This document shows positions 447 to 31,088 of a stretch of DNA of 35,438 bases, one piece after another. Source of the DNA: Paracoccaceae bacterium (GTDB taxonomy: Bacteria > Pseudomonadota > Alphaproteobacteria > Rhodobacterales > Rhodobacteraceae); assembly GCA_007120685.1 (NCBI GenBank), contig SKNG01000261.1:1-35438 (forward strand), given 5' to 3'. The translations under genes and the position numbers were made by a program. The notes under the pieces are model-generated. The model saw nothing but the letters and a program-made list of their open reading frames with translations, was not told where the DNA came from and ran no database searches. The first letter of the stretch is position 1. Each line of letters starts with the position of its first letter.

Positions 447-593
447 CAGCCAGCTTCCTTATTTCCGCCAGATTTTCGCGCAGACTGGAACGGGCGAAAC
501 GAGTGATCGAGTTGCCCGTGAAATCGCTGCGGCCATCAGCGCCGCAGACGTTGCAGAGGCCCGCAAGGACCCGATTTCCCATCAACCCGTGAT

Positions 594-1957
594 CTCGTCG
601 CGCGTTCGGCTGCCGGTGGCTGCGTCCCTCAAGGGATTGCCACCGTCTGCCGGATCGCGATCGCAGGTGTTGAGGACGACCAGACCGTTTCGACCGTCGT
701 TCTGGCATCGGGGCAGCCGTTCGGCCCGCTCGCACGCTATCGTGCGTTCGGGAAAGGCGAACGCGCAGCTCGTGATGCGGAATGTCTGACGGAACCGGTT
801 GTCGGTCGGATGTGTCGCGGCGGTCTGGCTGCCGTCTGCAAACCCTGCCCGGAAAGGGGCGGTTGCAGCAGCAACAGGCACCGTGACGCATGGAGAGAGA
901 AGGAAGGAGACAAAGACTGCTTGTGACGTGAAACCGACTGTCGAGCGCCCGGCCTGACCCCAAGGGGAAGGAATGGGACATCGAAGGTTCGGCGCAACGT
1001 CCAGGGCTTGCGGACCGAAACCGGCCGCCCGCTGCCATCGGCACCCGTCAGGGGGTCGGACCGGCAGTCGGCCAACGGTTTACCGGACATCCCGCGTCTG
1101 CCCTTGCCCGTCGCCCTGTCGCACCCCGTTCTGGCTTTGCCAGGGCAAGGGGCGGCAGCGCGGGGCAGAGGTGGAACGGGGGTTCGGGGGCGGTTTTCCG
1201 CGTGTGGTGGGGTATGCATGTCATGCCTTTCCCGTGCGACGGAGAGCGGCTTGTTCAGAGGGTCACGGATGCGACCGAACTGACGATGATCGGATTGTTT
1301 CCGATGGTGGACGGAAGGATCACGCGCCTGGCCAGACTGCGCCGCGGATGCCGGCTTGCAAACCCCGAAAGGGCGGCGCAAGCTTGGACATCCCGGGTCG
1401 GTTCCTGGTAGCGATGGGCGTGGTTTTCCGGCACTGGACAGGGGTTCAGGGCAGACTGGTGACGGTCTGGCGGGTAACGGGGCAGGCGAAGCCGCCCGGT
1501 GATACCGCCGCCGAAACCGGCCCTTGCCAGGAACACCTGCCAGGGCAACGGATGAAGCACCCATTGCGACGGGTCGAACCAAGATGCCTGCACCTGCCAG
1601 CCCCTTTGGGCGAACGGGCGCAAGGGATCAAGGGGACGGCCCCGACGGGTGGAAAGACGGTCCAGAGCCGAGACGGAAGCACGATCCGTTCGCGGGCACC
1701 GGGGCGAGGAGGCGGGCGCTTATGCGTCAGCCTTCAGGCCGCCGACCTGTGAACCGGATCGGGGCAACCGGATCGACGCTGGGATGTCGTGAAAAGGTCA
1801 CGCTTGCGGCGCTGCTGCCTGTGTCACCGGGTAACCTGGAAAAGGTTGCCATGGTGGCGGGGCAAGGGGCGTCGCAGGAAACGGACCGGCGGTCAACGGA
1901 CCGGACAGACAAAGCCGAGAGCACCGAGAGTCAGCACCAGCTGAGTCGATGCCACCC
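594..1957 (+). repeat. Arm A of the giant imperfect palindrome
   Basis: See the 490..3405 entry; roughly 60-70% identity to the reverse complement of 1960..3328 in segments aligned by eye. Confidence 0.85.
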
Positions 1958-1959
1958 GG

Positions 1960-3328
1960 GCCTGGCCAACCCCCGGCAAGGTAACGGTGTTCAACGCCAA
2001 GTCTGTACCGCCCAATGACCGCAGGTTCACTGCGCCGATGCTTGCTGACGCAGCATCCCGAAACGCACGGTCAAGTTGCCGTTGCACCAGGGATGCCGCC
2101 GAGAGGATCGGCAATCGACCATCACACGGCATCCCGTTCCGGATCCGGCGTACCCCGACCGCGAAGCAAACCGGCGGTGGGTGTGAAGACAAAGGTGCAT
2201 GAACAATGCCCCCTTCGCCCCATCGCCCGCAACGTGGATCGAGATCGCCGATTCGGCAACGGACAGTCAAACCCGCCTGACCAGGACCGCACCCGCGAGA
2301 CCAGACGCCAACCGCCCTGAAGGGTGGCAACGGCAGGGATCGACGGCAAGGCCTGTCACGGTGGGTGGTTCATCCACTGCCACGGCAGGGGTTTCGGCAA
2401 GGGCCGGTAACGGTGGCGGCACGCCGGCGGGGATGACTTTCCCGTCGCTTGTCGGACCAGAACCATCCTGCGCTGAAATCCTGTCCGGTGTCGGCAAACC
2501 GTGCCCATGGCACCAGGACCGACCCGCGATGTTCCGGCAAGCGCCGCCCCTGAAGGGCACGCAAACCGGCATCCGGGGAGGGGACTGGCCAGCCACGTGG
2601 CCTGGCCCGACACCGACGGAGGCAAGACGACAATCGGCAGCACGGACGCAGCCGGGACCGGACGGACAGACCGCTCCGGTTCGCTCGGGCAATAGCATGC
2701 AGGTCATGCCTTGCCCGTGCGGCAAACCGCCCCGGAACCCCGCGTTCCGCCTCTGGCCCGCCTTGCGGCCCCGCACCCCGGCACATGCCCGGACGCGGTG
2801 GCAGGCATGGCGCGGTGCAGGGCAGACACGGGATGACCGGAAAACCCAAGGCCGAATGCCGGCGCGGTCTCTGACCGGCTGGCGATGGCAAGGGCGAATG
2901 GTTTCGGCCCAAAGGCTGTGGACGGCACGGCGAACCGGAGATGGATCAGGCCACCCCCTTGGGGAAAGGCAGGGTGCAGCGCCGGTTGGCACCGTGTGGC
3001 AGGCAGTCGAAGGCTTCAACCTTCTTGAACCATGTGCATGGCGGCTTAGCGCCGCTTGCGGCTGTTCCTCATGGGGAGCGGTGCGCGGGCGGTGGCAAAG
3101 GCAGCCCGGCATATCCGGCTGACAGACGGAACCGAAGGACGGACGGCAAAGCGGCCGCGCCTCGCCAGACCCGGGCAGCGAAAGCTGCTGGCAGGTCAGG
3201 CGGTGCGCACCGGCGCCGGACGAAGGCGGAACGGTCTGGAAGCCCAGGGCACCGGCGAAAGCGGTCCGGACGGCGATACCGACCCCGACAAGGGGGCAAG
3301 GTCATCGGCGACCGGGCGCGACGACGAG
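1960..3328 (-). repeat. Arm B of the giant imperfect palindrome
   Basis: Reverse complement aligns to 594..1957 with few indels. Confidence 0.85.
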
Positions 3329-3435
3329 CCCATGGCAAGATGAAGGAGATGGGGCGCCTGCGGGCCTCCATTCATTTCCGGTTGCTCTGATACGAGATCC
3401 GTTTCATTGACTCGGGTCGCATGCGCAATGACGAA

Positions 3436-3481
3436 AAACGGGCCTTGTGATAGGCCCGTTTGCACGCGCCTTGGAAGGCGA
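3436..3481 (+). terminator. Double stem-loop AAACGGGCCT-tgtgat-AGGCCCGTTT + CGCGCCTT-gg-AAGGCG
   Basis: Two adjacent inverted repeats directly outside the right arm of the palindrome; same tandem arrangement as 30976-31024. Confidence 0.6.
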
Positions 3482-3557
3482 TTAACTCCTGCGCCTGCCG
3501 AAGCGATCAGCCGGAAACGGTGTGACATCCCTCGCAGTACTGTCGCCAGGCGGGCGG

Positions 3558-3586: not shown

Positions 3587-3617
3587 ATCCGGCATGACCC
3601 GCGACAGGAGCGCCGAC

Positions 3618-5003
3618 ATGCCCCCCAGTGCCGCCCAGCCAGTCAGCACGGCCGCGCCCCTGGCGCAGCCGCGGCCGGAGTCAGAGCGCGCCGCCATGCT
3701 GGCCGAGGCCGCTGCCGGCCGCGAACCCACGTATTTCGTCCCCATGCCCGACGGCATGCGCCGGCTGCCGGTGGTGCATGTTCCCGCCGACCTGCCGGTC
3801 TACCGGTTCGACAACGGCCGGCTGATCGCCGAACTGCACGAGCATGTGCATGCTGCCGGCGGCGACTTCGACGCCCTGCGCCGCAAGGCCCAGAGCGGCG
3901 AGACCCAGGCGCTGCTGCATCGGCTCCTGATGGCGCATGCCGGCGATGAGCGCGGGCCGATCCTGCAGGAACTGCGCCGCCTGCGCCAGCAGACGGAACC
4001 GCTGCTGGTCACCGCAGGCGGAGAAGTGATCAACGGCAACCGGCGGCTGGCAGCGATGCGCAGCCTTCTGGCCGAGGACGCCGGTCACTTCGACTGTTAC
4101 GCGCAGGTGGCCGTGGCGGTGCTGCCAGGGGACTGCCCGCCGGCGGATATCGACTTCATCGAAGCCGCGCTGCAGATGGCACCGGAAACCAAGCTGGGCT
4201 ACGGCTGGGTGAACCGCCGCCTGAAACTGCGCCGTCAGGTGGAGGAATTGAAATTGCCGCGCGACTGGGTGATGGCAGCCTATCAGATCGACGATCCGGC
4301 GCAGGTGGACCGGGAACTGGGCGAACTGGCCCTGGCCGAGCAGTTTCTGCGCGATCGCCTGCATCAGCCGGATCACTTTGCGGCGATCGCCGATGCCGAG
4401 GCGCTGTTCGTGGCCTTGCACGCGCAGCTGCAGGACCTGGCGCCCGCCCTGCGCGCGGTGTGGCAGAGCATCGGTTTCGCGATGATCCAGGCCCGTGACG
4501 CCCTGATCAAGGAGATCGGCGGCAGCTATCCGTTCGAGCCCGCAGTGCCGCGTCACCTGCCCAGCCTGGCGCTACGCCGATTCGCGCAGGAAAAACTGCA
4601 TGCGGAAACCGAAACCGAGGATGAAGGGGCGGCGCCGTCCGGCGGGTTGCTCGACGACCTGCGCGCCTTTTTCGACGGTTGCGGGCCGGATGACACCGAT
4701 GCGCTGCGCGACCTGACCGAGGTGATGCATACGATCCGTGAAGAGCAGCGCGAGGCGGAAAAGCCTGCAGTCATGCTGCAGCGGGTGCGGCGGGCACGCG
4801 CGCAGATGGACCGGTTGACGCCCGAGCGCCTGACCGCCGGGCAACGCAACGCGCTGCGCAGCGAGGTGGCGGCGATTCAGGCGCAGGCTGCCTATCTGTT
4901 GGGCGAGGCACCTGAGCATCGCTTCGAGCAGCGCAAGACCACGATGGTGAGGGCCGTGTCCGGCTACCTGCGCCGCTGGCGCGAGACCTCGGCAGGGGGC
5001 TGA
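3618..5003 (+). CDS. ParB/Srx (ParB-like N-terminal domain) protein
   Basis: PLLVTAGGEVINGNRRLAAMRSL resembles the ParB/Srx GxRR motif. ATG 3618 has an upstream AGGAG; the ORF track start at 3594 lies only 8 nt past the putative -10. Confidence 0.65.
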   Translation: MPPSAAQPVSTAAPLAQPRPESERAAMLAEAAAGREPTYFVPMPDGMRRLPVVHVPADLPVYRFDNGRLIAELHEHVHAAGGDFDALRRKAQSGETQALLHRLLMAHAGDERGPILQELRRLRQQTEPLLVTAGGEVINGNRRLAAMRSLLAEDAGHFDCYAQVAVAVLPGDCPPADIDFIEAALQMAPETKLGYGWVNRRLKLRRQVEELKLPRDWVMAAYQIDDPAQVDRELGELALAEQFLRDRLHQPDHFAAIADAEALFVALHAQLQDLAPALRAVWQSIGFAMIQARDALIKEIGGSYPFEPAVPRHLPSLALRRFAQEKLHAETETEDEGAAPSGGLLDDLRAFFDGCGPDDTDALRDLTEVMHTIREEQREAEKPAVMLQRVRRARAQMDRLTPERLTAGQRNALRSEVAAIQAQAAYLLGEAPEHRFEQRKTTMVRAVSGYLRRWRETSAGG

Positions 5004-30898: not shown

Positions 30899-30975
30899 GA
30901 AAGACGATCGGCGCGGTCGGGGCGGTGCATGCTGCACGGCGCTTGCGCTTGATCGGGTCGGCAGACGTCCCGGCA

Positions 30976-31024
30976 ACGCGCCTTCGAAGGCGCGTGCAAA
31001 CGGGCTTTCGAAAGCCCGTTTTGC
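30976..31024. terminator. Tandem perfect palindromes between convergent comEC and clpB
   Basis: ACGCGCCTTCGAAGGCGCGT (30976-30995) and AAACGGGCTTTCGAAAGCCCGTTT (30998-31021); related to 3436-3481. Confidence 0.7.
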
Positions 31025-31088
31025 GCCCATGCGGTAATGCGTGAACCAGTCGGTTGAAGACCCTGTCGCGCCTCGGCAAGGCTTGCGG

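Follow-up and report, generated by a model that had tools for sequence, protein, structure and literature searches.

A giant, imperfect and almost spacer-less palindrome in the window (the whole 35,438-nt stretch of Paracoccaceae DNA that was analysed, from genome G000) was confirmed to be genuine and far beyond chance, and a diverged counterpart was found in G946, a Rhodobacteraceae genome of another genus. We consider it slightly better than an even bet that the two represent a family of giant rods not described before, in which the + strand of the window element specifies a putative noncoding RNA of ~2.8 kb shaped as a bulged rod. With the caveat that the set comprises two members only, known from sequence, the element would be categorically new, and we know of no bacterial RNA family that forms a kb-scale bulged rod with conserved ends, free length (0.84-2.8 kb) and a free interior. 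Sequence-based RNA discovery is blind to such rods, which a self-antidiagonal scan can detect.

The initial annotation of this DNA had described a giant, diverged, near spacer-less palindrome with ends at 594 and 3328; the palindrome itself was borne out, with slightly wider ends at 556 and 3368 (Table 1). Alignment of positions 450-1957 against the reverse-complemented stretch 1959-3490 yielded an inverted repeat in which 928 positions match, 404 mismatch and 61 gap events take up 91 nt, corresponding to an arm-arm identity of 70% with strict gapping. BLAST extends it through the axis as one symmetric self-match of 2902 columns (873 bits) at 64.8% identity. The alignment score is 713, vs 42.7±5.4 (maximum 62) in 100 dinucleotide shuffles and at most 143 elsewhere in the window, and the next-best local palindrome in 573 kb of G000, window included, reached 64 bits. 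The comparison of the fold with shuffles that had been proposed as a check also came out in favor of the palindrome, the minimum free energy (MFE) being -1888 kcal/mol for the + strand and -1709 for the - strand vs -1428±11 for shuffles that were mononucleotide rather than dinucleotide. Helices in the predicted rods of both elements are short (mean 4.7-4.9 bp, maximum 14-18). Local folding inside each arm exceeds that of shuffles (z about -3 to -9) and sub-palindromes of the left arm score above the null (112 vs 48.7±8.7), while those in shorter sub-windows of the arms were mostly within or just above the null maxima, local perfect hairpins of at least 5 bp were not enriched within the arms, and no significant helical-turn periodicity of mismatches was found in the window element.

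Table 1. Features of the window and gene orders at the related loci; positions are those of the window unless a locus or contig is named.
Feature	Position	Strand	Remark
Fic-domain protein, C-terminal part (HPYVDGNGH), cut by contig end	3..446	+	PF02661, E 4e-6; cassette member
Conserved 5' terminus GCAGAGGCCCGCAAGGA	553..569	+	identical in G946 element, 17/17 nt
Left arm of giant imperfect palindrome (predicted rod)	556..1926	+	aligns to reverse complement of 1974-3368
CAA(A)GG motifs (17)	564..3301: 564, 630, 961, 1146, 1621, 1629, 1863, 1977, 2190, 2347, 2398, 2847, 2889, 2910, 3096, 3289, 3297	+	both arms
Centre (tip of predicted rod), almost spacer-less	1927..1973	+	axis ~1962; MFE innermost axis pair 1965/1970
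Right arm of palindrome	1974..3368	+	aligns to reverse complement of left arm
Conserved 3' terminus GGGGCGCC-TG-CGGGCCTCCAT	3351..3371	+	about 20/21 nt in G946; weak terminator-like match 3351-3368
Dispersed repeat of ~150 bp, ends inverted, abutting the palindrome	3387..3540	+	inverted copy beyond PLD gene on C472
Downstream host gene, weak ParB-like N-terminus	3594..5003	+	conserved in four genomes of the same genus that lack the element; outside cassette
G946 gene order	L140		Mrp-antiporter(-), palindrome(+), PLDc_2(-), RTX-Hint(-), Fic(+), tRNA-Gly
G000 gene order	contig C472		helicase gene(+), 150-bp repeat, PLD(-), Hint(-), contig end

By its sequence characters the palindrome is non-coding. 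Tested open reading frames had no Pfam match, and similarity of an arm to a known protein gene, named beforehand as one of the observations that would speak against the element, was not found in them. Three-base GC periodicity is absent across 601-3300 and present in the neighboring genes, and the longest open frame within the palindrome (344 aa vs 324 at the 95th percentile of shuffles) is only slightly above the shuffled range, helped by the lack of TA. An inverted IS or gene pair was rejected for the same want of a recognizable protein or Pfam match in the tested frames and of three-base periodicity in the arms. Rfam gave no match in the window or in L140, the 20-kb stretch of G946 described below, except for tRNA-Gly, and none of its large noncoding RNA families (GOLLD, ROOL, OLE and others) reached the gathering score in either; the literature searched likewise held no description of such an element, in agreement with the initial annotation, which could name no described family that fits it.

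By DNA search the giant palindrome is single-copy in G000, its other matches being to the separate 150-bp repeat at its end, and plasmids, phages and ~450 related genomes yielded only chance-level matches of 30-58 nt. With REP and MITE elements (PMC3733652, PMC2229807) it has in common that it is palindromic, non-coding and conserved at the ends, but those are short and present in high copy, and MITE/REP membership was rejected since the palindrome matches only itself. The neighboring 150-bp repeat does fit this short, high-copy kind. It is intergenic, is bounded by inverted ends (TGATACGAGATCCGGTTGATTGGCTCGG ... CCGAAGCGATCAACCGGAAACGGTATGA) with two hairpins inside, and occurs in at least 40 copies in G000 and in two in the congener G006; it is found also at window positions 30935-31033 and in at least 38 further places in G000, one of them at about 2290-2480 of L346.

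A close homolog of the window Fic protein (53% identity to the fragment, E 1e-41) led to G946, and in the stretch around it a diverged palindrome of 843 nt was found at L140:5617-6459 (64.8% identity, 293 bits), the best fold of which is a single unbranched rod of about -500 kcal/mol (z=-22). Its 3' terminus reads GGGGCGCC-CGG-CGGGCCTCCAT and is followed by CTTTTTTT, so that the 3' ends of the two elements, GGGGCGCCCGGCGGGCCTCCAT in G946 and GGGGCGCCTGCGGGCCTCCAT in the window, differ only in the CGG/TG stretch, and seven T residues (T7) directly follow the closing stem at the + strand 3' end in G946. Similarity between the two interiors was not significant (score 69 vs a null of 52±7). On the basis of their conserved termini, imperfect rods and association with a PLD–Hint–Fic cassette, the two elements qualify as two members, so far, of what appears to be one family. 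Further members were not recovered: the G946 element was absent by DNA search from 12 other genomes of its genus and from plasmids, and 70 Rhodobacterales loci (480 kb) that contain the 5' 17-mer, one mismatch being allowed, or overlap such stretches, the listed exact matches included, contained no palindrome above 44 bits. GCC-GAG-GCC-CGC-AAG being a coding string, matches to this 17-mer at one mismatch are frequent; searches by pattern for the 3' terminus returned unrelated coding or chance sites only, and a promoter search gave no match. Along the G946 rod, blocks of mismatches return at intervals of about 8 nt, with a spectral peak above the permutation limit, an unusually regular succession of short helices that is not seen in the window element.

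The two elements share a strand-specific composition. Over-represented k-mers common to the two interiors are CAAGG/GCAAGG, and the motif CAA(A)GG, with a background density of ~1 per kb on either strand, occurs 17 times on the + strand of the window element and 16 times on that of the G946 element, compared with 6 and 1 occurrences of its reverse complement. Since this motif was picked post hoc from the same data, the probability attached to the resulting 33:7 bias (about 4e-5, hand binomial) is optimistic. Its copies are divided between the arms (7 + 10 in the window, 7 + 9 in G946), a distribution that cannot be inherited from a duplication, because inverted duplication places the reverse complement opposite. 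In the predicted folds both A's of the motif are unpaired in 12 of the 17 window copies (one A in 3 more) and in 15 of 16 in G946, whereas the GG forms pairs in every one of the 33. Mismatches are similarly asymmetric, with A·A vs U·U at 57:4 in the window (p=5e-13) and 19:2 in G946 (p=2e-4), and A·G vs U·C at 80:25 and 32:2, respectively; A accounts for 48-52% and U for only 3-7% of the unpaired residues in the rods. UpA is found 16 times vs 75 expected in the window element and once vs 21 expected in the G946 element, values as low being reached in about 0.2% of 548 and in 0/2120 background windows, respectively. Counts of G·U vs A·C are 102:79 for the window element (p=0.10) and reversed in G946 (14:48, p=2e-5); this conflict weakens the interpretation as a + strand RNA, because pairing on the + strand alone should favor G·U in both. 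We infer that the G946 loops are genuinely open A/C loops and not damaged pairs.

Both palindromes lie beside genes for a PLD, a Hint-domain and a Fic protein, which share 57%, 43% and 53% identity, respectively, between G000 and G946. Since Hint-domain proteins are common in the family Rhodobacteraceae, PLD and Fic are the diagnostic genes of the cassette: a close Fic homolog (E<1e-40) was found only in G000 and G946 among 395 genomes of the order, and the PLD gene only in these two among 32 genomes, 18 + 12 congeners included. In G000 the last part of C472 (L346 4820-5041) runs into a frame that resembles the N-terminal portion of Fic, while C92, the contig of the window, starts inside Fic (1-446), so the two contigs appear to adjoin with a small gap, and we infer a cassette split over both in the order PLD–Hint–Fic–palindrome. 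Two inverted copies of the 150-bp repeat flank this block. The palindrome lies to one side of the cassette in G000 and to the other in G946, and has the same orientation as Fic in both. The PLD protein carries two HKD motifs, its nearest solved structures by sequence being the endonuclease Nuc (1byr) and mitochondrial cardiolipin hydrolase (MitoPLD/Zucchini), and its AlphaFold model is of low confidence (pLDDT 54); no homologs of it were found in phages, plasmids or viral contigs. On plasmids of sphingomonads and of Azospirillum, distant homologs of Fic have no giant palindrome nearby, and a single small palindrome following one of them was dismissed as resembling an IS-type hairpin. On the sphingomonad plasmids these homologs sit directly behind a site-specific integrase gene (L349:6964-8645, L351:6869-8639), hinting that the Fic subfamily may ride on mobile elements.

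The strand asymmetry bears directly on the possibility that the palindrome is an inverted duplication of ordinary DNA, such as a pseudogene or IS pair, that has decayed neutrally. The initial annotation had argued that the arms hold too few indels for such decay; this argument fails, because 61 indels are present and cancel each other in net register, and decay simulated with an indel load set close to the observed one is compatible with both the indel:substitution ratio (61:404) and the overall score. Imperfect arms would, moreover, evade palindrome-specific cleavage. We nevertheless regard neutral decay as very unlikely, given that the arms show neither a protein family nor coding periodicity, that the termini are conserved and the same architecture recurs in a second genus, that isolated matches in the window alignment are depleted relative to the simulation (74 vs 115±11, z=-3.7), and that neither the + strand CAAGG in both arms nor the large excess of A·A over U·U can follow from symmetric decay. 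The broader proposal of a selected long-hairpin RNA or DNA element is upheld in part, without its indel argument, by the second element, the strand-specific loop chemistry and the common loop motif.

An element acting as DNA would account for part of these observations without any transcription, the palindrome then being a cruciform or hairpin end that serves as a recombination, replication or transfer signal of a mobile cassette. The absence of the cassette from the 30 congeners searched, its different chromosomal sites in the two genomes, the location of a palindrome with conserved termini at one cassette edge in each, and the inverted 150-bp repeats around the G000 cassette are consistent with this explanation, which we hold to be unlikely, as strand-specific mismatches, a CAAGG/AA-loop motif in both arms and UpA depletion would not be expected if the DNA formed a double-stranded cruciform, an obvious target duplication is missing and the placement relative to the cassette is opposite in the two genomes. 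Alternatively, the RNA might derive from the - strand, or from both strands as a source of dsRNA. Read on the - strand, the G946 element has 48 G·U pairs vs 14 on the + strand and the lower MFE (-555 vs -499); in the window, however, it is the + strand that folds better and has more G·U, - strand loops would be U-rich, and in G946 itself the T7 tail lies behind the + strand 3' end and local arm folding exceeds shuffles more on the + strand, so that a - strand or double-stranded RNA seems quite unlikely.

If, as we favor, the + strand is transcribed, the product would be a rod of ~5-bp helices between small A-rich internal loops, closed by the conserved GAGGCCCGC/GCGGGCCTC end stem, and selection would act on the shape of the rod rather than on its sequence. 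The arms of the transcript may first fold as local hairpins and then zip into the bulged rod. Long hairpin RNA has, at least in one account (PMC6627737), been reported not to accumulate in bacteria; the rod proposed here would have loops nearly free of U and UpA, frequent enough to keep its helices so short that RNase III should cut them poorly. Its repeated AA loops and paired GG might present many identical sites and thereby a multivalent binding surface, the partner presumably being encoded in the cassette, with the tandem-HKD PLD nuclease as the simplest candidate, for which the rod could act as an uncleavable decoy or scaffold. That it is a decoy, antitoxin or scaffold for this nuclease is the most economical guess, if a doubtful one, and it is likewise rather unlikely that the locus represents a new RNA–protein system in which the PLD nuclease and/or Fic of the mobile cassette is bound and held in check by rod RNA, or senses it. 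Were the latter true, it would constitute an RNA-controlled toxin or defense module with a conserved structure and a sequence free to turn over. Transcription of the element would raise the questions of how the rod survives RNase III, what reads the AA loops and whether the PLD–Hint–Fic cassette uses it.

In its kb-scale, unbranched and imperfect rod the element resembles the rod-like RNAs of viroids and obelisks and eukaryotic hairpin-RNA (hpRNA) loci; the rods described here are, in contrast, chromosomally encoded in bacteria and tied to a protein cassette. Unlike in those systems, we know of no RNA replication or RNAi machinery here. With GOLLD, ROOL and OLE, which were described as ornate RNAs in homo-oligomeric complexes (PMC12286853), the element shares its character as a large, DNA-encoded, highly structured non-coding candidate of sporadic distribution, but differs from them in being one long bulged rod with conserved ends, a freely varying interior and no Rfam match. 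A predicted structured RNA beside a possible nuclease or toxin gene is also reminiscent of type III toxin-antitoxin (ToxIN-like) systems. However, the rods measure 0.84-2.8 kb, and no ToxN/AbiQ-fold endoribonuclease was identified beside them, the neighbors being Fic, PLDc_2 and RTX-Hint. As to the short tandem repeats of such antitoxin RNAs, no tandem array was seen, but a short motif, CAA(A)GG, does recur at irregular spacing.

The host gene downstream of the window element encodes a protein of 469 aa with no Pfam or NCBIfam assignment, which is 53-74% conserved in only a few genomes of the same genus, where it occurs in differing neighborhoods.
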